Below are positions 1,670 to 27,525 of a stretch of 37,157 nucleotides of DNA, in pieces. The stretch's first letter is position 1. The number at the start of each line of letters is the position of its first letter. The stretch covers positions 1-37,157 of the forward strand of contig CALJJR010000183.1 of NCBI GenBank assembly GCA_937973905.1. Reading direction: 5' to 3'. A program made the translations under genes and the position numbers. The DNA is from an uncultured Arenicella sp. (GTDB lineage: Bacteria > Pseudomonadota > Gammaproteobacteria > Arenicellales > Arenicellaceae). Under the pieces are notes generated by a model. The model was given only the letters and a program-made list of their open reading frames with translations, ran no database searches and was not told where the DNA came from.

Positions 1670-2320
1670 ATGACTGTTGCCGCCTCAACACCTGCGCGCC
1701 GCCTAACTCAGGCTGAACGCACTGAAATATCAGATCAGCGCATGTTTGAGGCGACAGTGAATTTGATTGTTGAAAATGGCACCGCTGCAACGAGTTTGAA
1801 AGAAGTCGGTGAGCGCGCTGGCTACAGTCGTGGTTTGGCAGGGCATCGTTTTGGCAACAAAGATGCTCTATTCAGTTTCGTGGTTCGGCGTTTGGGTGAG
1901 ATTTGGCTTGCTCAATTGAAGCTGACAACAACTGGAGCTACTGGCTTTCAGGCAATTGAGAAAGCATTGGAACAGCACTATCAGTTTTGTGTTGATGCGC
2001 CACAGCAAGTCCAGACTTTCTATACGCTTTGGTTTGAGTCGGTGAACACGTCCACTGAACTGAGCGAGGCGATCCAAGGTATTCACCGCCGCCGCCATGC
2101 CGACGTAGTCGCTTGGATTAATCAATGCGATCAAATTTCTGCATCAGTCAAACAAAGCTCTGATGCTATCGCCGCACAATTTAGCGCTTCTGTTATCGGG
2201 ATAGTCTATTACTGGCTTGCTAACCCCAGTGACTTGAACCTAGCGCGCACACTTCACGATGGGCTTAAATTGACAATGTCACAACTGCTCAGCGAAAAAA
2301 ATAACGAGGAATTGCTATGA
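1670..2320 (+). CDS. TetR family transcriptional regulator
   Basis: N-terminal HTH: ISDQRMFEATVNLIVENGTAATSLKEVGERAGYSRGLAGHRFGNKDALF; 216 aa; stop overlaps the start of the next gene. Confidence 0.92.
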   Translation: MTVAASTPARRLTQAERTEISDQRMFEATVNLIVENGTAATSLKEVGERAGYSRGLAGHRFGNKDALFSFVVRRLGEIWLAQLKLTTTGATGFQAIEKALEQHYQFCVDAPQQVQTFYTLWFESVNTSTELSEAIQGIHRRRHADVVAWINQCDQISASVKQSSDAIAAQFSASVIGIVYYWLANPSDLNLARTLHDGLKLTMSQLLSEKNNEELL

Positions 2321-5300
2321 GTAAAGCAACGATCAAAACCGTAGTAAATCAACAGCAGCACGAAAGCCGCTCGATGCCATTGCGATTTGTTACCGCAGCC
2401 AGCTTGTTTGACGGGCATGATGCGTCCATCAATATTATGCGGCGTATTTTGCAATCTCAAGGCGTTGAAGTTATTCATCTGGCTCACAACCGCGCGGTGT
2501 CGGAAGTGGTGACAGCGGCCTTGCAGGAAGATGTTCAGGGTATTGCGCTGAGTTCCTATCAGGGTGGCCACGTTGAGTACTTCAAATACGTCGTAGACAT
2601 GCTGAAGGAGAATGGCGCCGATCACATTAAGGTGTTTGGCGGCGGTGGTGGTGTTATCGTGCCGAGCGAAATTGCTGAGCTGCATGCCTACGGAGTGGAT
2701 CGTATTTATTCGCCGCAAGATGGTATGGAGCTAGGCCTGGTTGGCATGATCGAGGACATGGTGCAGCGTGCCGGGCAAGTAAATGCCGAGCGTTTCAACG
2801 TTAGCGAAATTGAAAAAGATTCTTCTGATCACCGCGTTTTGGCACGTTTGATAACGGCCATCGAAGCCGGTGATTTGCCCAGTAAAGAATTATCGAAGCT
2901 GAAGCTGGCCGCAGGTAAAGCAACGCCCGTCTTAGGAATTACCGGCACTGGTGGCGCGGGAAAATCCTCGCTGACCGATGAGATAATTAGACGCTTTCGA
3001 GTCGATAGTTCTAATCAAGCGCGTATCGCGGTGCTCGCTATCGACCCCACACGACGCAAAACGGGTGGCGCTTTGCTTGGTGATCGTATCCGTATGAACG
3101 CGATTTACGACGACACTATTTTTATGCGCTCGGTTGCCACCAGAGGTTCTACGGGTGAGGTGCCAGAACACCTGAGCGATATCATCGCAGCGGTGCGACA
3201 CTTTGATTTCGACTTAGTGATTGTTGAGACCCCAGGTATTGGTCAGGGTGATGCTGGTATTGTGCCTTACGTAGATGCATCTATGTATGTCATGACGCCG
3301 GAATTCGGCGCGCAGAGCCAGCTGGAAAAAATCGATATGCTCGATTTTGCTGATCTTGTTGTGATTAATAAGTTTGATCGCAAAGGCGCGGAAGACGCGC
3401 GTAGAGATGTGGCCAAGCAAGTGCAAAGAAACCGTGAGCAATGGGACAAAAGTATTGATGAGATGCCGGTTTACGGCTCCATTGCGTCTCGGTTTGGCGA
3501 TGACGGTGTAAGCGCGGCATACCATGGCTTGTTACAAGTATTGCGCTCTAAGGGCTTAAGAGACTGGGAGTCAAAATTGCCCGTGATTGATTCCCGTATT
3601 CCATCGCAACGTTCAGTGATTGTGCCGACTTCGAGGCAGCGCTATCTGGCTGAGATAGCGGAATCTCTCAGGCTATTTCACGCCGAAACTGAAACCCAAT
3701 CGATATTAGCCAGAGAGCAACAGGCACTGGAGTTTACGCAAGGCTTACTGGCTCAAAATAATGCTGAAATCGACGCTCTGATGACTGAACGAGGGAATAA
3801 GTTAAGTCATGAAAATAAAATTTTGATTGAGCAATGGCCGGAGATTCGCGCCGGCTATTTAGGCCGTCAACGTGAAGAAACGCTCCCCAATGGTAAGACC
3901 ATAACAACGGCGCTTACTCGAGAGACTTTATCTGGCAATCACGTATCCAGAGTTGCCGTGCCTGAGATCCACGATCATGGTGCTCTTCTGCGCTGGCTCA
4001 GACGAGAAAACTTACCTGGCTTTTTTCCCTATACCGCGGGTGTTTTTCCGTTCAAACGTGAAGGTGAGGACCCCGCTAGAATGTTTGCGGGCGAAGGCGA
4101 TCCACAACGTACGAATAAACGGTTCAAACGATTATCTCAGCATTCTCCGGCAAAGCGTTTATCCACGGCGTTTGATTCAGTGACGCTGTACGGTTTTGAC
4201 CCCGCTACTCGCCCCGACATCTACGGCAAGATTGGTAATTCTGGCGTCTCAGTCGCGACCCTGGATGATATGAAGCAGCTCTTTGATGGCTTTGATTTAT
4301 GTGATCCATCGACGTCTGTCTCTATGACTATTAATGGGCCAGCACCTACGATTCTGGCGATGTTTTTGAATACGGCTATCGATCAGCAGATCGCGAAGTT
4401 TGTCGAACAGCATGACCGTCAGCCAACCCAAGAAGAGGGCGATGAGCTTAAGGCGCAAGCCTTACGCTCGGTACGTGGAACGGTGCAGGCCGATATTCTT
4501 AAAGAAGATCAAGGGCAGAACACCTGCATCTTCTCAACGGAATTCAGTCTGCGAATGATGGGTGATATCCAGCAGTACTTTATTGATCATGAGGTGCGGA
4601 ATTTTTACTCAGCGTCAATTTCCGGGTATCACATCGCTGAAGCTGGGGCGAACCCAATCTCTCAGCTTGCTTTCACTTTAGCAAACGGCTTCACCTTCGT
4701 TGAAACTTATTTAGCTAGAGGCATGCATATCGATGATTTTGCTCCGAACCTAAGCTTCTTTTTCTCAAATGGCATGGACCCTGAATACACTGTGATCGGC
4801 CGGGTCGCGCGCCGTATCTGGGCGGTTGCCATGCGCGAGAAATATGGCGCCAATGCGCGCAGCCAAAAGCTCAAATATCATATTCAAACGTCGGGCAGAT
4901 CGTTGCATGCACAAGAAATGCAGTTCAATGATATTCGCACCACGTTGCAAGCGCTGCTCGCGATCAACGACAATTGCAATAGTTTGCATACCAACGCCTT
5001 TGACGAAGCCATCACAACGCCGACTGAGGACTCAGTACGCCGCGCACTGGCCATACAGTTAATTATCAATCGCGAGTTCGGCCTGGCGAAGAATGAAAAC
5101 CCCAACCAAGGCGCATTCATTATTGATGAACTCACAGACTTGGTCGAAGAAGCCGTACTGCAAGAATTTGAACGAATCTCAGACCGCGGCGGCGTATTGG
5201 GTGCGATGGAAACTGGCTATCAGCGTGGTCGTATTCAAGAAGAGTCAATGAAGTACGAGACCCTCAAACATGATGGTAGTCTGCCCCTAATAGGCGTGAA

Positions 5301-5571
5301 TACCTTTTTGGCAGAGCAGGGCGAGGAAGAATTTACTGTTGAGCTTGCTCGCTCTACTGAAGAAGAAAAAAACAATCAAATCAATCGATTAGCTGATTTT
5401 CATCAAGAGCATTCGCAAGCCTCTGAACAGGCTCTGTCCGAGGTTAAGGAAACCGTGTTAGAAGGTGGCAATGGTTTTGCCGCACTGATGGATGCTGTGC
5501 GTCATTGTTCCCTGGGGCAGTTGACCGACGCGTTTTTTGAAGTCGGTGGCCAATACCGAAGGAATACATAA
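2317..5571 (+). CDS. icmF: Fused isobutyryl-CoA mutase (B12-binding domain + G-protein chaperone + mutase large subunit)
   Basis: N-terminal B12 domain with DGHDASINIMRRIL; P-loop GITGTGGAGKSS; C-terminal mutase with GTVQADILKEDQGQNTCIFSTEFSLRMMGDI; 1084 aa single ORF, the IcmF architecture. Confidence 0.95.
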   Translation: MSKATIKTVVNQQQHESRSMPLRFVTAASLFDGHDASINIMRRILQSQGVEVIHLAHNRAVSEVVTAALQEDVQGIALSSYQGGHVEYFKYVVDMLKENGADHIKVFGGGGGVIVPSEIAELHAYGVDRIYSPQDGMELGLVGMIEDMVQRAGQVNAERFNVSEIEKDSSDHRVLARLITAIEAGDLPSKELSKLKLAAGKATPVLGITGTGGAGKSSLTDEIIRRFRVDSSNQARIAVLAIDPTRRKTGGALLGDRIRMNAIYDDTIFMRSVATRGSTGEVPEHLSDIIAAVRHFDFDLVIVETPGIGQGDAGIVPYVDASMYVMTPEFGAQSQLEKIDMLDFADLVVINKFDRKGAEDARRDVAKQVQRNREQWDKSIDEMPVYGSIASRFGDDGVSAAYHGLLQVLRSKGLRDWESKLPVIDSRIPSQRSVIVPTSRQRYLAEIAESLRLFHAETETQSILAREQQALEFTQGLLAQNNAEIDALMTERGNKLSHENKILIEQWPEIRAGYLGRQREETLPNGKTITTALTRETLSGNHVSRVAVPEIHDHGALLRWLRRENLPGFFPYTAGVFPFKREGEDPARMFAGEGDPQRTNKRFKRLSQHSPAKRLSTAFDSVTLYGFDPATRPDIYGKIGNSGVSVATLDDMKQLFDGFDLCDPSTSVSMTINGPAPTILAMFLNTAIDQQIAKFVEQHDRQPTQEEGDELKAQALRSVRGTVQADILKEDQGQNTCIFSTEFSLRMMGDIQQYFIDHEVRNFYSASISGYHIAEAGANPISQLAFTLANGFTFVETYLARGMHIDDFAPNLSFFFSNGMDPEYTVIGRVARRIWAVAMREKYGANARSQKLKYHIQTSGRSLHAQEMQFNDIRTTLQALLAINDNCNSLHTNAFDEAITTPTEDSVRRALAIQLIINREFGLAKNENPNQGAFIIDELTDLVEEAVLQEFERISDRGGVLGAMETGYQRGRIQEESMKYETLKHDGSLPLIGVNTFLAEQGEEEFTVELARSTEEEKNNQINRLADFHQEHSQASEQALSEVKETVLEGGNGFAALMDAVRHCSLGQLTDAFFEVGGQYRRNT

Positions 5572-10933: not shown

Positions 10934-11749
10934 ATGAATTTACCAATCTACCAAGTAGACGCCTTTGCTGACAGGCTATTCACAGGCAACCCTGCCGCAG
11001 TTTGTCCACTGCAGGGTTGGCTCGACGATTGGCAAATGCAGGCCATCGCGGCAGAGAATAACTTGGCCGAAACGGCATTTTTTGTCCCGCAAGGTAAAGG
11101 GTTCCAAATTCGTTGGTTCACGCCGGCGCTGGAAGTCGACCTGTGCGGACATGCAACGTTGGCTGCTGCGCATATTTTGTTCACCGAACTTGGTTTCGCC
11201 GAGGATATTATCGAATTTCACTCACGCAGCGGATTATTAACAGTCACACGCGATCAAGATCGGCTGACAATGGATTTCCCCGCCGAACCTGCTTTGGCGA
11301 CGCAAACGCCGCCGAACATGGAGGGCGCCCTGGGCTATCTGCCGAGCGAGGTTTTGTTCAACCAAGATTATTTGTGCGTCTTTGATGAAGAAACGATTAT
11401 TCGTGATATGCAGCCCGATTTTGCGGCACTGTCACACTTTGACGCTCGCGGAATAATTGTGACGGCACCCGCAGAAAAGTATGATTTCATATGCCGATTC
11501 TTTGCTCCGCAGGTTGGTATCAATGAGGATCCAGTCACTGGTTCAGCGTTCACCAAGCTCGCTCCTTACTGGTCGCGAAGGCTGGACAAAGAACAACTCT
11601 TTGCGCATCAAGCATCTAAAAGAGGAGGCGACGTTTGGTGCGAGGTCGATGAGGCTAAACAGGGGCGAATTGTGATCTCGGGCTCCGCAGTCACGTTTAT
11701 GCGTGGAACCATGAACCTCGGTGACCTAATCAATGCAGGTGCAGAGTAG
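10934..11749 (+). CDS. PhzF family isomerase/epimerase-like protein
   Basis: MNLPIYQVDAFADRLFTGNPAAVCPL, AAENNLAETAFFV, LCGHATLAAAHILF, NEDPVTGSAFTKLAPYW. Confidence 0.93.
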   Translation: MNLPIYQVDAFADRLFTGNPAAVCPLQGWLDDWQMQAIAAENNLAETAFFVPQGKGFQIRWFTPALEVDLCGHATLAAAHILFTELGFAEDIIEFHSRSGLLTVTRDQDRLTMDFPAEPALATQTPPNMEGALGYLPSEVLFNQDYLCVFDEETIIRDMQPDFAALSHFDARGIIVTAPAEKYDFICRFFAPQVGINEDPVTGSAFTKLAPYWSRRLDKEQLFAHQASKRGGDVWCEVDEAKQGRIVISGSAVTFMRGTMNLGDLINAGAE

Positions 11750-14700
11750 GGTCACCCAGCAAGGCCCAATTGTGCAACATAGGGTTATTGGGGCTCATCT
11801 CTAGTTTGGCCGCTTTGATTGCTCCGCCAAGAGTTTTAATGTCTTTGCTATTGCGAATAAAACGTTCTGCAAATATTGCGTTCTCTCGATATTCGCCCAA
11901 CACCGACGCCCCATGAACTGCGGCTGCACCTTGCGCACCCGCAAACAACCACTGGTGCGCCAGCGTGTTGATTGAAGGGCTTTCGTAATAGGTTGTATAG
12001 CAAGCGAGTGGCATCACTAGCAATGGGTTGTCGTGGTTCTGCAATGACTGAATGAATTCTGTATTCACAATACTCTGGTAACCCCAGGCAGAGGTGCTGG
12101 CGTGTCCAGCAAAGCTCACCAGATCGGCGCCAGCTTCAATGCTCTCTTTCAGCATTCGGCGAGCCGTCAAAATGGGGTCATCAACTGCACCATCGAGCAG
12201 CTCTTGCATGGATATCTGGTTCTTGGAACCCAATAAACCCGTTTGCACCAGCGGCGCGGTAACGCGGCCGAGCATCTGTTGATCGAAATTGAGGCCTCGT
12301 GCATCGGGCTGTTGTGTCAGCAAAACCGCATCAAGAAAGTTTTCTTCGCTGGCTTTTGCTGACCAGCGCTTAGACTTATCGATAATCGTAGTCAGATCGG
12401 CCTGATTGCGTGCGGGCCATCGACCAACACTCAACTCAGGAATATTGTCGCCGTTGAGGTCTGCGTAAGCGTTATCGGTGGGAGCATGACCGAAGATGCC
12501 GATAGGATGATAGTGCGTGGGGATCAAATTGATTGTATTTTGACCGCTCACATTTAAATAATCCCAACTATGCCCACCCACAATTAACAAGTTGTCGAGC
12601 GGAGCAAATTCATTGTTCAGTTCTAGATATCGATCTAGGGCTGCCGGCGTGGCGTTTCCAAAGCCATAAGTTTCAACTATATCCAACCAATTCAATTGGT
12701 GGACGCGTAATCCGTTTTCACTTTTCTGCGCTAAATATTCATCTAACTCTTCACTTAGCAGAGTAGGGTGGGTAACAACCAACAAGTCGCTGTCAATTTC
12801 ATGTTGGAGCTTCGGCACTGACACCAAAATGTTTTGAATCGGGTTCCAAGTAGATTCCAAAGCCACAGTGTAAAAAGTGCTGTCTTTATGCTCTAAAGGT
12901 TTGAAGAGCAAAACCCCATCCGGTGCGCGAGTAGCTCCTTGCATGATGACCAAGGCACCATTCTTTTGCCAAGCGAGCACGGGCGAGAATTTTGTCGATC
13001 GGGAATTCGGCGCGACTTGCACGATTCTGGAATCTGCAGCAACTTGAAACTCAAATCGATCTGCGTCACTTAGAAGGCTCGTATACTGCAATTCGATTTG
13101 ATCGACTAGAACGATATCAACGCCGTTGGCCGTATCGCCAGGCAAAGTGATAGTCAGTGTGTTCTCGCCTGCTAGTAGTGTGCCTTTTTTAAGGTTTAGC
13201 GCTAGTTGTTGCTCGCCAATGCCGTCAAAATCGAGTTCGTGAATGAGATGACCATTGACCCGAATCTGTACATGGTGATCTGGCTTGCCGGGCAAATTGA
13301 TGCTACCAAAGAGGCCGACCTTCAGTATTGCAGGCTCATTGCTCAGCGTTTTTTCATGCAGATCAAAACTATAGACCTTAGAGACGGGGTTGCCAGTAGT
13401 GAATAACTCGGCATCGTACCAAGGGTCGCCATTGTTTAACGCAGCGGAGTAGGCTCTTATTTGAGTAAGTTGCTGGCTGAATAATCCGTGGTTGTTGGCA
13501 ATGGCGGTCACTGAGCGCGGGTCGCCTTCACCAATCTGCGCGGGTCTGGCCAGACTTTCCGATAGTCGAAGCTGATAATTGTAATGCCGTAAGTAAATCG
13601 CATCCGCGCCGACCGGTTCAGTTGCGACAAAAAATATCTGGTCATCGTTGCTTAACAATGAATCCTTGCTTACGATGTGACGCGGATGGGCCTCGCCATT
13701 TAGAGTGAGTGCCAGCTTATCGATCGGTGTGCCGCGCCAGTTGGGTAGAACGGCCAATAAAGTCTCTGCTTTAATCAGCTGTATGCCGTAGTCTGAAGGC
13801 ACGAAGTTTGCAACTGATTTGGTCGGTGAATACCGTTGCTCGACAGATCTCGCAGCGCTGCGTGCATTGGTCTTAAGAATTCGGCCGTTGAACTCCAGGT
13901 ATCCAAGGTCTTTGAGCCGTTGATCGAACAAAGCACGCTGTTCTTGCCAGTCTATTGGTTCATTAATGGCTATTTCACCGTAGTCTTCACCATCCTGAAA
14001 CGGGCCATAAAACTCTTCAAATCCTGCGGTATCGACCGTTGAAATTCCAAATACGGTGATCTCGCCGTATTGCTCGCGTTTGAGCCGCACCGTTTTTTGA
14101 TACTCTCGTACACCAGAAGCGGCTTTACCTCCGCCAGGAATTAATCGTTTGTTGAGCTGGACCCATTCACCATTTTGTTCACCCCAAAGGTTGAATCCAA
14201 GATGAAAACTCTCCGCGCTGGTTTGCCATTCAAACAGCGCTTTGCGGCCGAATATATTTACATTCGCGCGATTCAAAGTGACCGGTGTGGTAAATGTCTC
14301 ACTGAAAGCAAACGCTGAAATCGCTTCGGTCGTATGTCGTCGATCGGGGTCTGAGATTTGATCTTCATCGGCAGTCAAAGTGATTTCGGTGGCGTTTACC
14401 GAACATCGTCTAAGTACATGCCCATCGATACCTGCCCGGGTTATAGAGCTGGCAATTGCAATCGGCGTGTTACTGAAGCATCCATTGGCAAAAGTAGCAC
14501 CTTCGCCAGAACTGCAACCATTGGAAAATCCATCAACCACGCGCGCGGTGTTTACCGCATTGAACGTCAATGATGCGGGACCCCCAAATGAGGAAAAATC
14601 CAACTGCGTGCAAGCGCTTTGCTCAACAGCGAGATAGCAGGCTCGCTCAGTTGTGGTGAGAGCTCCAACTCCAGCTTCCAGTCTGTCGATTGAGAGATCG

Positions 14701-15338
14701 AAGTCAGCCGCCGTCACGTTGCTGGTTGCAGTATCAATAAACACCGGTTCACCACCAGCGCCGGTGTTGTTGGTTGTTTGAATCGCTGTTAACAGAGCTG
14801 GCGCTGCACTAAAGGTGGTCGAAAAATCTACATCGACGGTGCCGGTAGGGCCGGCGCAGTCGTCGCAATTATCACTATAAGTTTGCGCATCGGTATTGAT
14901 GCAACTTGATTCAAAGGTAAGGCTATCGCTGCTGTTTGCGATGGGAACATCGGTGGTACCATTGGCCACAGCTACATACTCAAAAGTCATGCCGGGATGA
15001 GCGCCATCCGCATTCACGGGTTCGTAGCAAACTGCATCGAATCCAGTGTTATCAACATTTTGAATTCGGATAACGCAGGGGTCGCCACCGGCAAGAGTGG
15101 TCATGGCAAACACATTAGGCGGCGCCGTAGGAGGGCCGGCAAAAGTGGCCGGAAACTCGATTCTGGTAAAGGTGTTGTTGCTGGTTGCAGGTAACACCGC
15201 TTCGCCTACCACCAATACTGCGGGAGCGGCCGTGGCGCTGCTAGCCACCATCGTTATTCCTAAGATTAGACCTAGTATGGTCAGTTTCGAAAGCCTTCGG
15301 GCCAGATAAAACCAACTAGTGTTTTTTCCCAATTTCAT
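11730..15338 (-). CDS. Exported gingipain/peptidase C25-like multidomain protein
   Basis: Signal peptide (LTILGLILGITMVASSATAAPA); C-terminal C25-like domain with DNLLIVGGHSWDYL, PTDNAYADLNGDNIPELSVGRWPAR, VSFAGHAS (His) and MPLACYTTYYESPS (Cys), LLGDPTLHLH. Confidence 0.85.
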   Translation of the reverse strand: MKLGKNTSWFYLARRLSKLTILGLILGITMVASSATAAPAVLVVGEAVLPATSNNTFTRIEFPATFAGPPTAPPNVFAMTTLAGGDPCVIRIQNVDNTGFDAVCYEPVNADGAHPGMTFEYVAVANGTTDVPIANSSDSLTFESSCINTDAQTYSDNCDDCAGPTGTVDVDFSTTFSAAPALLTAIQTTNNTGAGGEPVFIDTATSNVTAADFDLSIDRLEAGVGALTTTERACYLAVEQSACTQLDFSSFGGPASLTFNAVNTARVVDGFSNGCSSGEGATFANGCFSNTPIAIASSITRAGIDGHVLRRCSVNATEITLTADEDQISDPDRRHTTEAISAFAFSETFTTPVTLNRANVNIFGRKALFEWQTSAESFHLGFNLWGEQNGEWVQLNKRLIPGGGKAASGVREYQKTVRLKREQYGEITVFGISTVDTAGFEEFYGPFQDGEDYGEIAINEPIDWQEQRALFDQRLKDLGYLEFNGRILKTNARSAARSVEQRYSPTKSVANFVPSDYGIQLIKAETLLAVLPNWRGTPIDKLALTLNGEAHPRHIVSKDSLLSNDDQIFFVATEPVGADAIYLRHYNYQLRLSESLARPAQIGEGDPRSVTAIANNHGLFSQQLTQIRAYSAALNNGDPWYDAELFTTGNPVSKVYSFDLHEKTLSNEPAILKVGLFGSINLPGKPDHHVQIRVNGHLIHELDFDGIGEQQLALNLKKGTLLAGENTLTITLPGDTANGVDIVLVDQIELQYTSLLSDADRFEFQVAADSRIVQVAPNSRSTKFSPVLAWQKNGALVIMQGATRAPDGVLLFKPLEHKDSTFYTVALESTWNPIQNILVSVPKLQHEIDSDLLVVTHPTLLSEELDEYLAQKSENGLRVHQLNWLDIVETYGFGNATPAALDRYLELNNEFAPLDNLLIVGGHSWDYLNVSGQNTINLIPTHYHPIGIFGHAPTDNAYADLNGDNIPELSVGRWPARNQADLTTIIDKSKRWSAKASEENFLDAVLLTQQPDARGLNFDQQMLGRVTAPLVQTGLLGSKNQISMQELLDGAVDDPILTARRMLKESIEAGADLVSFAGHASTSAWGYQSIVNTEFIQSLQNHDNPLLVMPLACYTTYYESPSINTLAHQWLFAGAQGAAAVHGASVLGEYRENAIFAERFIRNSKDIKTLGGAIKAAKLEMSPNNPMLHNWALLGDPTLHLH

Positions 15339-19422: not shown

Positions 19423-19541
19423 ACCTCAGTGGTGTGGTCATAGCTACTGGAGGGCGTTACGCTGCAAAATGTCAGCACAAGCGAGACCAGAATTAATTGG
19501 GTTATTTTGAGAGGTTGGGAAACTATGGTGAGTGTATCTGC

Positions 19542-21143
19542 ATGAAGAGTGAATTTGACTACGTAATTGTAGGTGCAGGATCGGCCGGCTGCGTCTTGGC
19601 CAATCGGCTTTCCGAAAATCCCAACGTCACTGTTTGTCTATTGGAAGCAGGCGGCAGTCATAAAAACCCCTTTGTATGGATACCCGCAGGAACATTTGCA
19701 ATTTTAGCCACCAAGCTAAAGAACTGGGCCTTTGAAACTGTGCCACAGGCAGCATTGCATAATCGCCAAGGCTACCAACCCAGAGGCAAGGTTCTGGGTG
19801 GCTCATCCTCGATTAACGCCATGGTCTACATCCGCGGTCAACGCCAAGACTATGACGACTGGGCAGCTCAAGGTTGCTCCGGATGGTCGTTTGATGAGGT
19901 GCTTCCCTATTTTAAGAAAGCCGAGCACAACGAGGCGGGTGCTGACGATTTTCATGCCCAGGGCGGGCCGCTCAACGTTGCAGCGGTGACCGACCCTGCA
20001 CCAATCAATGAACTATTTATTCAGGCTGCGGTTGAGGCTGGTATTCCAGCAAGTAAAGATTTCAATGGGGCTGACCAAGAGGGCGTGGGGTATTTTCAGT
20101 TAACACAGAAGAATGCTGAGCGATGGTCGGCCGCACGGGCCTATCTCGACCCAGTTGCAGATCGGCCTAACTTAACCGTTGTGAAGCGTGCACTGACCCA
20201 ACGAGTGTTGTTTGCAGGCAAACGAGCAACTGGCGTTGAAGTTAAGGTCAAAAAAGAGAACCACACGATACTGGCACGACAAGAAGTCATACTCAGTGCT
20301 GGCGCCTTTGGTTCGCCGCAATTGCTTATGCTTTCCGGTGTGGGTGATCCTGATGAGCTCGCCAAACATGAGATCGAGTTGCAGCATGATTTGCCAGCAG
20401 TAGGTCGAAATCTGCAAGACCACCCAGACTATGTGTTGAGTTACAAATCCAGCTCTCTAGATACGGTTGGTTTCTCTATCTTAGGTGGGCTGAAAATGGC
20501 TGGGGAACTGGTTCGCTATTTGTTCAAACGACGCGGAACCTTGGCTACGAATTACGCTGAGTCGGGTGCGTTTATCAAATCCGACCCATCGCTGTCTCGC
20601 CCTGATGTGCAAATTCATTTTGTTCGCGCGCTCGTCGACGATCATGGGCGCAACTTGCACTGGGGCCATGGTTACGCATGCCATGTCTGTGTTTTAAGGC
20701 CCAAAAGCCGCGGCACGTTAAAACTTGCGAGTGCCGACCCTGCGGAGGCTCCGTTAATTGATGTTGCGTTTTTGCAAGAAAAGGAAGACCTAGAAACACT
20801 GGTCGCTGGTTCAAAGCTGACGCAAAAAATTATGCGTTCAAGTCAATTTGATCGCGTTAGAACCAGTGCGATGTATGAGAGTGACTCTGACGACGATGCT
20901 CGTTTTAGAGCCGATGTCATCGCCCGTTGCGACACTGTGTACCATCCCGTCGGAACCTGCAAAATGGGCACAGATGACGCTTCTGTAGTTGGTCCGGACC
21001 TTAAGGTTAATGGCCTTGAAGGTCTGCGTGTGGTTGATGCATCAGTAATGCCTGCCTTGGTTTCTGGTAATACCAATGCGCCGACCATTATGATCGCTGA
21101 AAAAGCCGCAGATATAATCAAGCAAGCTGGCGAAAAAGAGTAA
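19542..21143 (+). CDS. GMC family alcohol/choline dehydrogenase-like oxidoreductase
   Basis: [94 protein letters not shown] at 19542 preferred over 19497. Confidence 0.94.
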
Positions 21144-21153
21144 CGACATCAAT

Positions 21154-23097
21154 ATGAAATCAAAATTGTTTTTAATTCTCGCTGGCTTTTTGTTTGTCTC
21201 GCCAGGGTTTGCTCAAATAGAGGTCAGCCCGCATACGATTGCGGCCAATAAAAAAGTCGAGCAAGCACTCGATTTTAATAATCGAGATGATTTCGAAGCC
21301 GCCCATCGAGGGTTTCTGGCCACCGATGATGCAACCGTCACCGTCAATGCAGAAGGCGGCATAGTCTACGACTACGGGCAGCAGGGATTTCTGGAGCAGG
21401 CACCGCCCGCAACCGTAAACCCGAGTCTCTGGCGTCAGAGCCAATTAACGTCGATGCACGGTCTATTTGAGGTGACCAAAGGCATTTATCAAGTGCGCGG
21501 TTTTGACTTGTCTAATATCACCTTCATTGAAGGTGAGTCTGGCTGGATTGTGGTCGACCCACTTATCTCAAAGGAAGTGGCAGCCAAAGCACGAGCCCTA
21601 GTGGATAGAGAACTAGGTGAGCGGGCGATCAGCGCCGTTATATTCACCCATTCCCACATCGATCATTATGGTGGTGTTCGCGGCTTGTTGAACGAACAAG
21701 ATGTGGCTGATGGTGCGCAAATAATTGCACCTGAAAACTTTGTCTATGAAACGGTCAGCGAGAACGTCTTGGCCGGCAATGCTATGTCGCGACGCGCGAG
21801 TTATATGTTTGGCGGGCTTTTAGCCCAGTCACCTGTGGCGAATGTTGGCGTTGGGCTTGGTCAAAATATTTCCACCGGCACCTACGGGCTCATGGCGCCG
21901 ACCAAGGAAATCAAAGAAACCGGAGAGCGCCTCAATATCGATGGTGTGGAATTCGAATTCATCATGGCTTTGGGGGCAGAAGCCCCGTCTGAATTCATGT
22001 TTTACCTGCCTCAATTTAAAGCCTTCTGTCAGGCTGAGATAATCAACCATACTCTGCACAATATGCTGACGCCGAGAGGGGCAAAGGTGCGCGATGGACG
22101 CCTTTGGAGTAAATACATTGATGAAGCCATCGTGCTGTACGGTGAAAAAGCTGAAATCTCGTTTGGTTCACACCATTGGCCTACTTGGGGTAATGAAAAG
22201 CTCAATCAGTTTTGGGCCAGCCAAAGAGACCTGTATCGCTATATTCACGACCAAACCTTGCGGTTAGCCAATCAGGGCGTGACTCTCCAAGAAATACCCA
22301 GTCAACTAGAGCTGCCTGAATCACTTGCAACTCAGTTTGCCAACCGCAGCTACTATGGTGAGCTGGGATTTAATGCGCGCTCACAATACCAACTTTATTA
22401 CGGTTTCTTTGATGGGAATCCTGCAAACCTGAACCCTCTTGCACCGGCTGATGAGGCGGTGAAATTTGTAGAGTATATGGGCGGTGCAGATGCCGTCTTG
22501 GAACGTGCGCAGCGAGATTACACCAACGGAGAGTTCCAGTTTGTGGCCACCGTATTGAATAAGTTGGTGTTTGCGGATCCTGACAATCGTGCAGCTAAGG
22601 CACTGTTGAGTAAGGCTTATGCGCAGCTTGCTTATAAGGCTGAGTCGGGCGTGCATCGGAATTTCTATCTTACTGCGGCGCAAGAACTCACTTTCGGCTT
22701 GGCTGATGCACCGAGGCCCAATACGGCAAGCGAAGACATCGTGAAAGCGATTCCATTAAATCTTTATTTTGATTTGCTCGCAGTTCGCCTTAATGGCCCC
22801 AAAGCGGCTGATAAAGACTGGCAGATCAATTTTGAAATTCGAGACACTGGCGAGAAAGCCTTGTTGTTTTTGAGTAATGGCACGCTGCATCACCGTATGG
22901 GGCACAGCAACGAAGATGCTGATGCGACATTGAATCTGACCCGTGATGCTCTAGATCAACTAAACTTGAAATCGGCGAGCATGCTAGGTTTGATCGCCCG
23001 CGGGCAAGCGTCAATTAGTGGCAACCCAATTACACTCACACGATTTTTCGGATTGATTGAAGAGCCACCTTACTGGTTTAATATCGTCACTCCGTAA
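21154..23097 (+). CDS. Exported linear alkylsulfatase (SdsA/BDS1-like MBL-fold with C-terminal SCP2-like domain)
   Basis: Signal peptide; THSHIDHYGGVRG, IIAPENFVYETVSENVLAGNAMSRRASYMFG, EFMFYLPQFKAFCQAEIINHTLHNMLTPRGAKVRD; C-terminal NFEIRDTGEKALLFLSNGTLHHR. Confidence 0.93.
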   Translation: MKSKLFLILAGFLFVSPGFAQIEVSPHTIAANKKVEQALDFNNRDDFEAAHRGFLATDDATVTVNAEGGIVYDYGQQGFLEQAPPATVNPSLWRQSQLTSMHGLFEVTKGIYQVRGFDLSNITFIEGESGWIVVDPLISKEVAAKARALVDRELGERAISAVIFTHSHIDHYGGVRGLLNEQDVADGAQIIAPENFVYETVSENVLAGNAMSRRASYMFGGLLAQSPVANVGVGLGQNISTGTYGLMAPTKEIKETGERLNIDGVEFEFIMALGAEAPSEFMFYLPQFKAFCQAEIINHTLHNMLTPRGAKVRDGRLWSKYIDEAIVLYGEKAEISFGSHHWPTWGNEKLNQFWASQRDLYRYIHDQTLRLANQGVTLQEIPSQLELPESLATQFANRSYYGELGFNARSQYQLYYGFFDGNPANLNPLAPADEAVKFVEYMGGADAVLERAQRDYTNGEFQFVATVLNKLVFADPDNRAAKALLSKAYAQLAYKAESGVHRNFYLTAAQELTFGLADAPRPNTASEDIVKAIPLNLYFDLLAVRLNGPKAADKDWQINFEIRDTGEKALLFLSNGTLHHRMGHSNEDADATLNLTRDALDQLNLKSASMLGLIARGQASISGNPITLTRFFGLIEEPPYWFNIVTP

Positions 23098-23215
23098 ACG
23101 GCGGCGGTACGCGAGCTGTCTGCAAGAATTTATAAGCAAAATAAAGAGACTGCGTAGGGCATAGCGCCATGTCGCAGTTAATACTAACGAAACCACACAC
23201 TATAAAGAGGAAACC

Positions 23216-24844
23216 ATGCTTGGATTAATGATGGATGAGCAACTAACGATCACTGCATTGATGCGTTATGCCAAACAAATTTATCCCGACTCCACGATCA
23301 CATCAATCACCCATGATCATGAACGGTTTCGTTACACCTTTGGAGAATGTTTTACCCGAGTTGGTCAGCTGGCCAATGGCTTAAAAAAGATCGGCGCAGA
23401 GCCGGGCGATATGCTGGCGACATTGGCGTGGAATGATCATCGTCACATGGAAGTCTACTACGCAGCCTGTTGTGCCGGCAGTGTTTGCCACACCATTAAC
23501 CCAAGACTCTTTCCCGAGCAACTTAGTTATATTATCAACCACGCGGAAGACAAGTTTATTTTTGTCGACCCCATGTTTGTGCCTTTGCTTGAAGCATTGC
23601 TCGACCAAATACCCAACGTGGCTGGTTTCATTGTCATGGCCGGTGCCGATAGCATGCCAGAAACTAAACTGCCGAACGTGCACTGCTACGAAAACTTGCT
23701 AGAAGGTGAGAGCCCTGAATACGACTGGCCGCAGCTGGATGAAAATACCGCCTGCTCGTTGTGCTACACGTCGGGAACCACTGGCAATCCCAAGGGTGTT
23801 TTGTACTCACATCGTGCCTTGGTATTGCAGTGCTATGCGAGCTGCAGCGGCGGTGCCATGAGTTTGTCGAACCAAGATACTGTATTGCCAATCGTACCAA
23901 TGTTCCACGTAAACGCTTGGAATATGCCTTACTCGGCGTCGCTGGCCGGCTTCAACTTAGTCTTCCCCGGTTCAAAGATGGGTGACGGTGCAACCTTGCA
24001 GCAATTGATTGAAGAAGAAAACGTCACCTTTTCTGCGGGTGTGCCAACCGTTTGGCTTGGCTTACTCAATTACCTGCGCGAAACTGGCAAAAAAGTGGAA
24101 ACACTCAAAGGCGTTGTTGTTGGTGGTTCGGCTTGCCCGTTAAGCATCATGGAAGAATTTGAAAACGTGCATGATGTTTATTCACACGTCGGCTGGGGCA
24201 TGACTGAAATGGCGCCGATGGGTACCTTCAATACCCTCAAAAAACCGCGCGAAGATTACGCCGATGAAGAGTATGCCGTGTTACGTCAAAAAGGTGGTCG
24301 ACCTATTTTTGGGGTGCAAATGAAAATCGTGGATGAGCAAAATAACGAGTTGCCTTGGGATGGTGTTGCCTATGGCGCGCTGAAAGTGAAGGGCCCGTGG
24401 GTAGTGAAAAACTATTTCAAGAGCGATAAAGAAATTCTTGATGCCGAAGGCTGGTTTGATACCGGTGACGTGGCTACGGTAGACCCTGATGGGTATATGG
24501 CGATTACCGATCGCACCAAAGATGTGATTAAGTCCGGTGGTGAATGGATTTCGTCAATTGATTTGGAAAACTGTGCCATGGGCCACCCGGGCGTACTCGA
24601 AGCTGGCGTGATTGGTATTGTGCACCCCAAGTGGGATGAGCGGCCCTTGCTAGTCGTTGTGCGTGAACCTGGTTCAGAAGTGCAGGCCGCTGAAATCATC
24701 GAATACATGGAAGGCAAGGTAGCTAAATGGTGGTTGCCGGATGAAGTCGCTTTCGTCGATGAGTTGCCGCATACGGCAACGGGCAAAATTCATAAAGTGG
24801 GTCTGCGAGAGCAATTCAAAGATTTTTCTTTCAGCAACGTTTAA
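23216..24844 (+). CDS. AMP-binding fatty acid/3-methylmercaptopropionate-CoA ligase (AlkK/DmdB-like)
   Basis: Shine-Dalgarno-like AGAGGAAACC before [89 protein letters not shown]. Confidence 0.94.
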
Positions 24845-24859
24845 GCCCAAAGGTTATCC

Positions 24860-26269
24860 ATGCTAACTCGGTTCTCAATCGTTTCGTTCCTGCTGGTTTT
24901 GTTCTCAGCGTGTGCGACCTCACCAATCGCTGATTCTGAAGATTCCTCCGCAGATGAACTTGGCGATGCAGATGCTTTCGCGTCTACTTATGTCGTGCCA
25001 GACTCAGCGCCAACCGTTATCCGTAACGCGAGAGTATTGGTGGGTAACGGTGAAAGCTACACCACGGCTGATATTGTGTTTTCTGACGGTAAAATTACCG
25101 CAGTTGGAGAAAGCTTAGTTGCTCCAGATGGTGCGATTGAGATTGCTGCAGAGGGTAAGTGGGTAACTCCTGGGATTATCGATGTGCATTCGCACATGGG
25201 GGTTTATCCCAACCCTGCGATAGCTTCGCATTCTGACGGTAATGAAGCGGTTGCGCCCAATACCGCTGAAGTCTGGTCGGAACACTCAGTTTGGCCGCAA
25301 GACCCGAATTTTGAAAAAGCCATTGAAGGTGGTGTAACTACAGCGCAAATCTTACCTGGTTCAGCCAACCTGTTTGGTGGTCGCGGAGTGGTTCTAAAAA
25401 TCGTGCCGTCGATCACTATGCGTGGCATGAAATTCCCGAACGCGCCGCATAGTCTCAAAATGGCCTGCGGCGAAAACCCGAAGCGAGTCTATGGAAGCAA
25501 GGGTGGCCCGGGTACGCGAATGGGTAATATGGCGGGCTACCGTAAAGCTTGGATTGACGCGCAACAATACGCCAATGACTGGGCTGAATATGAAACTAAA
25601 AAAGCCAAAGACGCCAGCGCTAAAGCGCCCAAACGTGATCTGCGTTTAGAGACGCTGGCCGGCGTCTTAAACGGCGAAATACTCATTCACAATCACTGTT
25701 ATCGCGCCGATGAAATGGCCAATATGATTGAGCTGTCCAAGGAGTTTGATTACAAAATCTCGACCTTTCACCATGCTGTCGAAGCTTACAAAGTTGCACC
25801 GCTGCTTGTCGAGAATGAAATCTGTTCAGCAGTATGGGCCGATTGGTGGGGTTTTAAACAAGAGGCTTTTGATATGGTGCGCAGCAATGCCGCGTTACTT
25901 GAGTACGCCGGTGCTTGCGCGATCATTCACTCTGACGACGAAACTCAAATTCAGCGCCTACCGCAGGAAGCGGCCAAGGTGATGGCCGCCGCGGCTGAGA
26001 TAGATTTAGATTATCCACCAGAGTTAGCGATTAAATGGCTGACTGCGAACCCTGCTAAGGCGATTGGCTTGGCCGATCAGATTGGTACGCTGGAGGTAGG
26101 CAAAAACGCCGATGTTGTTGTGTGGAGCGCAAATCCATTCAGTGTCTACAGTAAGGCAGAATTGGTATGGATTGATGGCGCATTGCGTTCTGATCGAAGC
26201 AATCCACAACTACCACCGACCAGTGACTTTAACTTAGGGATTATCGAGCCCGAGGAGGATCGTCCATGA
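24860..26269 (+). CDS. Lipoprotein amidohydrolase (imidazolonepropionase-like), metal motif intact
   Basis: Lipobox VLFSAC; VTPGIIDVHSHMGVYPN (HxH), LIHNHCYRADEM, STFHHAVEAYK, AIIHSDDE, GKNADVVVWSANPFSVYSKAELVWIDG. Confidence 0.92.
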   Translation: MLTRFSIVSFLLVLFSACATSPIADSEDSSADELGDADAFASTYVVPDSAPTVIRNARVLVGNGESYTTADIVFSDGKITAVGESLVAPDGAIEIAAEGKWVTPGIIDVHSHMGVYPNPAIASHSDGNEAVAPNTAEVWSEHSVWPQDPNFEKAIEGGVTTAQILPGSANLFGGRGVVLKIVPSITMRGMKFPNAPHSLKMACGENPKRVYGSKGGPGTRMGNMAGYRKAWIDAQQYANDWAEYETKKAKDASAKAPKRDLRLETLAGVLNGEILIHNHCYRADEMANMIELSKEFDYKISTFHHAVEAYKVAPLLVENEICSAVWADWWGFKQEAFDMVRSNAALLEYAGACAIIHSDDETQIQRLPQEAAKVMAAAAEIDLDYPPELAIKWLTANPAKAIGLADQIGTLEVGKNADVVVWSANPFSVYSKAELVWIDGALRSDRSNPQLPPTSDFNLGIIEPEEDRP

Positions 26270-27525
26270 GGCTCTCGCAATTGATAAAGGCTGTATTCGT
26301 ATTCGCGCTGGTCAGCGCAAACCTGCAGGCGCAAACACTGATTAAGAATGTCGCCTTAGTAAGCGATTCGGGCGATTACCCCGCGGTGCAAGATGTCTTA
26401 ATCAAAGACGGTAAAATCCATGCGATTGGTGAGGCGCTGCAAGAATCCGACAGCTATACCATCATCGATGGTTCTGGCAAACGGCTCAGCACGGGCTTTT
26501 TCAACGCCAACACGGATCTTGGCATCCGTGAAGTCGGTGCCGTAGAAACAAGCGTTGATTCAAGTTCAGCTAATGCCAGAATTACCGCATCGCTCCGTGT
26601 CGCTGACGCAATCAATCCAAGCAGTACCTTGTTGCCCTACAATCGTTCTCTGGGTTTGACTCACGCGCTGGTCACGCCGTCAGCAAAAGCAGGTCTATTC
26701 GCGGGTACCGCTGCGGTCATCCGCTTGAATACGACTGGCACCGTGATTGATGAAGCAGCGGCCGTGGTGGTCGAATTAGGGAGCAAGGGCAAGCTCGTTG
26801 CAGGTGGGTCACGCGCCGCTGCGTTCGCGCAATTGCGAGAAGCGTTTGAAGATGCGCGTGATTACCGCGCAAATAGAGGAAGTTACAACAGCGGTAACCG
26901 CCGAGATTATCCACTGTCTCGTCAAGATCTACAGGCCTTAGCGTCTGTTATCTCCGGTCAGATGCCGTTGTTGGTCTTTGTCGACCGGGCGATTGATATT
27001 GAACGCGTATTGGACTTCGCCAAGCGGCAAGATATCAGATTGATTTTGGCCGGTGTGGAGGAAGGCTGGCGGGTTGCAGAGAAAATTGCTGACGCTAAGG
27101 TTCCCGTCATTGTAGACCCAATCAACAATCTGCCTTCGTCTTACGACACCTTGGGGTCAAGATTGGATAACGCCTCATTGCTGCATGAAGCGGGCGTGAC
27201 GCTCCTGTTCACCGGCATGAGTTGGCACAATACGCACAATGCCTACCTAGTGCGGCAGTCGGCCGGAAATGCGGTGGCTAATGGTTTGCCTTATCAGGTT
27301 GCCATCGCTGCCATGACCACTAATCCCGCTAAAGTCTTTGGCTTGAGCGACAGTTTAGCGCTCAAAGTTGGTGCCAAAGCTAATTTGGTTTTATGGGGCG
27401 GTGATCCTCTAGAACCCAGTACGAGGGTGGAAGCCGTGTGGATGGCGGGTGAGCAACAATCGTTGGTCACGCGTAGTACGCGTCTTAGAGATCGATACTT
27501 GTCGATCATTAAAGCGGCTCAGTGA
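26266..27525 (+). CDS. Exported amidohydrolase-family paralog with degenerate metal-binding motif
   Basis: Overlaps the previous gene by 4 nt; signal peptide; amidohydrolase framework (VLIKDGKIHAIGEAL, NPAKVFGLSDSLALKVGAKANLVLWGGDPLEPSTRVEAVWMAGE), but the HxH site reads TGFFNANTDLG. Confidence 0.88.
   Translation: MRLSQLIKAVFVFALVSANLQAQTLIKNVALVSDSGDYPAVQDVLIKDGKIHAIGEALQESDSYTIIDGSGKRLSTGFFNANTDLGIREVGAVETSVDSSSANARITASLRVADAINPSSTLLPYNRSLGLTHALVTPSAKAGLFAGTAAVIRLNTTGTVIDEAAAVVVELGSKGKLVAGGSRAAAFAQLREAFEDARDYRANRGSYNSGNRRDYPLSRQDLQALASVISGQMPLLVFVDRAIDIERVLDFAKRQDIRLILAGVEEGWRVAEKIADAKVPVIVDPINNLPSSYDTLGSRLDNASLLHEAGVTLLFTGMSWHNTHNAYLVRQSAGNAVANGLPYQVAIAAMTTNPAKVFGLSDSLALKVGAKANLVLWGGDPLEPSTRVEAVWMAGEQQSLVTRSTRLRDRYLSIIKAAQ

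Follow-up and report, generated by a model that had tools for sequence, protein, structure and literature searches.

P1 and P2, two adjacent genes in the window (the whole analysed stretch of DNA, 37,157 nt), encode homologous amidohydrolase-superfamily proteins, one with an intact metal site and one in which this site is lost. The products are probably the catalytic (P1) and non-catalytic (P2) subunits of one exported hetero-oligomeric hydrolase. P1 most likely requires P2 as a non-catalytic partner, since each of the 62 sampled genomes with one of the genes also has the other. The earlier note had proposed P2 as a pseudoenzyme partner, and both the loss of the full site in all sampled P2s and the co-occurrence in 62 of 62 genomes support that proposal.

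Description of the gene pair

P1 has the canonical motif VTPGIIDVHSHMG, followed by IHNHC, FHHA and IHSDDE. P2 has a Sec signal, STGFFNANTDLG, LLVFVDRA and LLFTGMSWH. All of these are present as the earlier note had written them, and the 4-nt gene overlap that it described is borne out by an ATGA common to both reading frames (Table 1). Among 75 P1-P2 pairs, an overlap of the −4 type is possible in 50, the −1 type is found in 14, and 11 are of other types. Translation of P1 and P2 would be coupled via ATGA.

Table 1. Features of the P1-P2 pair, in positions of the window
Feature	Position	Strand	Length or basis
P1, exported amidohydrolase and lipoprotein with intact metal ligands	24860..26269	+	469 aa
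P1 signal peptide and lipobox (FSA-C18, ends at Cys18)	24860..24913	+	read from sequence
P2, catalytically dead amidohydrolase homologue	26266..27525	+	419 aa
Sec signal peptide of P2, probable cleavage site behind residue 22 (LQA-Q)	26266..26331	+	sequence
ATGA 4-nt stop/start overlap of P1 and P2	26266..26269	+	read from sequence

Of the 64 scored non-fused P1 relatives, 54 have a lipobox, and 72 of the 73 scored P2 relatives have a hydrophobic N-terminus; the N-termini of P1 relatives are likewise hydrophobic. With a lipobox predominating among P1 relatives and a signal peptide among P2 relatives, both proteins should be located outside the cytoplasm.

Metal site

The metal ligands of P1 are H110 and H112 (strand 1), H279 (strand 5), H305 (strand 6) and D359 (strand 8). 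The aligned residues of P2 are N82, D84, F238, G263 and M318; the strand-8 region of the P2 alignment is gapped, and residue assignments there are less certain than in strands 1, 5 and 6. F238, G263 and M318, at the positions of H279, H305 and D359, agree with the earlier reading that the later ligand positions of P2 look substituted.

Ligands were surveyed in 74 P1 and 75 P2 sequences, with P1 as the ruler. All five are kept in every alignable P1 row, the exceptions being gaps in truncated rows. Among the P2 sequences, 47 keep none, 22 keep one, 6 keep two and none keeps three or more. The strand-6 histidine (H305 position) is replaced by glycine in 70 of 75 P2s; the other former ligand positions vary freely. 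HxH is absent from 73 of 75 P2s. It is retained, without the strand-5, -6 and -8 ligands, in the P2s of an Oligoflexia MAG (L033) and of locus L059. The claim that loss of HxH is conserved across genomes therefore needs a small correction: this loss is near-universal, and that of the full site is universal in the sample. Strain-specific loss and sequencing error in P2 were rejected, ligand loss being common to all sampled relatives.

K200 of P1 (LKMACGE), conserved in 73 of 74 rows, is by its motif a probable carboxylated lysine that may bridge the two metals. The P1 site would be of the catalytically competent type of the amidohydrolase superfamily, and P1 is a putative hydrolase. Cysteines C203, C280, C322 and C353 of P1 are each conserved at 98%, which is compatible with disulfides in the periplasm.

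Columns of His, Cys, Asp, Glu or Lys conserved at 85% or above number 37 in P1. In the 66 main-clade P2s there are six, all Asp or Glu, and no conserved His or Cys column was found. P2 thus shows no alternative metal site, and the rebuilt site that the earlier note had named as a possible refutation was not seen. N82, D84, D240, E266, H321 and H324 were considered as alternative ligands and rejected, as no set of them is conserved; H324 occurs in 48 of the 66 main-clade P2s, without a conserved His partner.

Homology and fold

P1 and P2 align to each other across nearly the full length (27% identity over query residues 21–399, E 5.8e-25); by this alignment and a shared best PDB match the two are genuine homologues, and their resemblance is not due to chance. 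P1 matches Pfam Amidohydro_3 with 61 bits, over the curated cut-off, and P2 matches Amidohydro_1 with 33.3 bits, passing the gathering cut-off of 25. Both fall below the curated cut-offs of the NCBIfam equivalogs for Xaa-Pro dipeptidase, imidazolonepropionase, allantoinase and dihydroorotase; the best equivalog scores are 66 bits (P1) and 37 bits (P2), each against a cut-off of 371.

The amidohydrolase 3ooq of Thermotoga maritima is the closest solved protein to P1 and P2 in sequence and fold, and the top PDB match of both (1.2e-62 for P1, 6.9e-28 for P2). The predicted single-chain model of P2, from a nine-row alignment, has a pLDDT of 82 and superposes on 3ooq with a TM-score of 0.78 (query) or 0.84 (target); as modelled, P2 retains the full, 3ooq-like amidohydrolase barrel. 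For P1 the single-chain model is weak, with a pLDDT of 66, probably because the alignment is shallow; its first structural match is still 3ooq. After 3ooq, the nearest folds to P1 and P2 are prolidases and arginine/lysine carboxypeptidases (3n2c, 3mkv, 3mtw, 3be7).

Distribution and inheritance

In a profile search of 399 genomes of the phylum (thresholds 1e-40 for P1 and 1e-20 for P2), each profile was matched in 62 genomes. The two genome lists are identical, with none discordant, so that the co-occurrence across genomes which the earlier note wished to see checked is complete in the sample. At every match among the 62 genomes the two genes share a strand and P1 directly precedes P2, including the second P1-P2 copy of one genome. 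Within the genus, P2 is present in 11 of 17 sampled relatives (one merely as a contig-edge fragment), and P1 is directly upstream wherever flanking sequence exists. P1-P2 is the sole unit retained within the genus; the neighbours change. Pairs are also present in Dasania, an Oligoflexia (Bdellovibrionota) MAG and a Gemmatimonadota MAG; on an Acidobacteria contig P2 is cut at the contig edge. Phyla other than the main one are represented by few loci only.

P2 is under purifying selection. In the five closest pairs its dN/dS is 0.03–0.10, comparable to P1, and in some more distant pairs it reaches 0.2–0.4. P2 thus combines the features expected of a pseudoenzyme with a partner, namely conserved ligand loss, purifying selection and, in the sample, obligate co-occurrence. 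P1 forms one clade in the tree (support 88). All 57 dead domains are split from all 52 metal-intact sequences by one branch (SH-aLRT 92). P1 and P2 have long been inherited as a unit, because most sub-clades recur in both halves of the tree.

One genome (G171) carries a second, very divergent P1-P2 pair beside its ordinary pair (L093, 3084–5701); the P2 of this locus keeps one ligand, and its branch is long and its position in the tree unsure. In a genome of the same genus as the window (G003), P1 has two in-frame stops and the adjoining P2 is open (L121, 6285–7750). The stops, which count against the subunit reading, could be recent decay or an assembly error.

Triads and single-gene relatives

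Triads are present in eight loci (L087–L092, L095, L096). An ORF of about 1000 aa, composed of an N-terminal dead amidohydrolase-like domain and a ligand-intact P1-type domain, precedes a P2-type gene. The union of dead and live domains in one chain is an indirect hint, of the Rosetta-stone type, that favours contact. Apparent fusions of P1 with P2 were rejected as overlapping reading frames; the 967-aa frame in L068, for example, is not a fusion, because P1 is intact in another frame. Three single-gene relatives (Bacillota, Actinomycetota) have no partner gene beside them and show the strand-1 HxH.

Gene neighbourhood

P1 and P2 close a co-directional run with genes for a GMC oxidoreductase (19497), an alkylsulfatase-type protein of the metallo-beta-lactamase fold (21154) and an AMP-forming ligase (23216). 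Of these neighbours (19497–24844), the GMC oxidoreductase and alkylsulfatase-type genes are found again close to P1-P2 in L121, and the ligase gene in L119. As these genes recur in scattered genus members only, the link of P1-P2 to a GMC/alkylsulfatase/AMP-ligase pathway is not firm, and such a pathway was rejected as a functional clue. No recurrent transporter, receptor or regulator was found beside the pair across the phylum.

A POT-type peptide transporter gene lies upstream of P1 in five loci (L108, L077, L082, L094, L107). A gene recognised by eye as Xaa-Pro aminopeptidase-like adjoins the single-gene relative of Acetoanaerobium. Together with the nearest folds, these neighbours faintly suggest that the substrate of P1 may be peptide-like and P1 possibly a peptidase.

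Other gene arrangements were recorded. On a Qipengyuania citrea plasmid (L108, 2311–7861), genes for a GntR regulator, a POT peptide transporter, P1, P2 and an FKBP isomerase stand in a row. In L069, L073, L080, L085 and L104, all of one family, two genes resembling MsrP/MsrQ (a methionine sulfoxide reductase pair, recognised by eye) are directly upstream of P1. Elsewhere in the window are a 1202-aa protein (11730–15338, − strand), whose C-terminal domain is a Peptidase_C25 (gingipain-type) one and which weakly matches an H-type lectin, and a 1084-aa fused methylmalonyl-CoA mutase (2317–5571) with B12-binding and MeaB-type GTPase domains.

Proposed role of P2

P1 would be a lipoprotein tethered in the cell envelope and would perform the catalysis. 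P2 would be an old paralogue, devoid of the whole metal site. Purifying selection would have kept it for its assembly with P1, in which it takes the place of one half of the homo-oligomer that the single-gene ancestors formed. It may stabilise P1, complete the entrance of the P1 active site, or gate P1. The ATGA overlap would lead to P1 and P2 being made in similar amounts.

Strict adjacency and overlap of the genes could reflect shared expression without contact, and adjacency by itself needs none. P2 might then be a separate periplasmic binding or sensor protein of the same operon, its old pocket binding the substrate or product of P1, and some P2 residues are indeed conserved without a metal (position 266 is Glu or Asp in all main-clade rows, W268 is present in 58 of 66, and R241 and D98 are further examples). 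Such a protein is unlikely here, as no recurrent transporter, receptor or regulator was found with the pair across the phylum and the triad fusion speaks for contact between dead domain and P1. A few amidohydrolase-superfamily enzymes are held to need no metal. P2 would be a further enzyme, metal-independent or with unusual ligands and acting, for instance, on the product of P1, if the strong selection on it and the HxH of L033 and L059 were signs of catalysis; this is improbable, given six conserved Asp/Glu columns and none of His or Cys, against 37 columns of His, Cys, Asp, Glu or Lys in P1, and former ligand columns that vary freely save for the change of H305 to Gly.

The 1:1 presence, gene overlap and loss of catalysis would also suit a chaperone or maturation factor, serving the folding or metallation of P1 and absent from the final enzyme. 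P2 keeps the full enzyme fold, however, not a reduced one, and no such factor adjoins the single-gene relatives, which leaves this role quite improbable. That P2 is a functionless, decaying duplicate is hardly credible: its catalytic residues are lost, but the gene is open and under purifying selection across several phyla, co-occurrence with P1 in the sample is complete, and the dN/dS of about 0.03–0.10 in the closest pairs contradicts decay. A non-catalytic subunit that assembles with P1 is the preferred reading.

Relation to known systems and significance

P1 shares with 3ooq the residues at the ligand positions and the segment LKMAxGENPKRVYG. Unlike 3ooq, P1 is a lipoprotein and has four conserved cysteines, and P2 is without ligands; the aligned part of 3ooq carries no export signal, and the chains of the entry are all of one sequence, with no dead partner. 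No published function of the 3ooq protein was found in the open-access literature. The prolidase / Xaa-Arg carboxypeptidase group (3n2c, 3mkv, 3mtw, 3be7) belongs to the same superfamily at low identity (about 14–17%), and P1 and P2 are far below the cut-off of the NCBIfam Xaa-Pro dipeptidase model. We know of no dead partner in this group. CRMP / dihydropyrimidinase-related proteins have an amidohydrolase fold without metal and assemble into homo- and hetero-oligomers. They are weak matches to P1, are animal, cytosolic proteins of the dihydropyrimidinase branch and by sequence are not the nearest relatives of P2; P1-P2 is similar to this group in working principle and is not a member of it.

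In Pseudomonas aeruginosa, an inactive pseudo-dihydroorotase chain is needed for the activity of ATCase (PMC7053772). Like P2 as proposed here, it is an inactive chain of the amidohydrolase superfamily on which the activity of a partner depends. There the partner, a transcarbamoylase, is not related to the inactive chain, and the complex lies in the cytosol; P2 instead has an amidohydrolase homologue as its partner, and the two are exported proteins. By analogy, P1-P2 resembles this system in logic and is not a member of it.

No description of the P1-P2 pair was found in the open-access literature, subscription papers lying outside the search, and the pair is apparently, for now, undescribed. 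There is an even chance that it represents a class, not yet described, of exported hetero-oligomeric amidohydrolases with a dead homologous subunit (two dead domains in triads) as an obligate part, which might for example lend residues to the active site of P1 or gate it. Both genes of the Qipengyuania pair are annotated simply as amidohydrolases; P2 would be mistaken for an enzyme, because both genes tend to be so annotated. P1 expressed alone may yield inactive protein. The active/dead pair, the single-gene relatives outside it and the triads would form a natural series from homo-oligomer to obligate hetero-oligomer, in which the role of a dead subunit may be followed.
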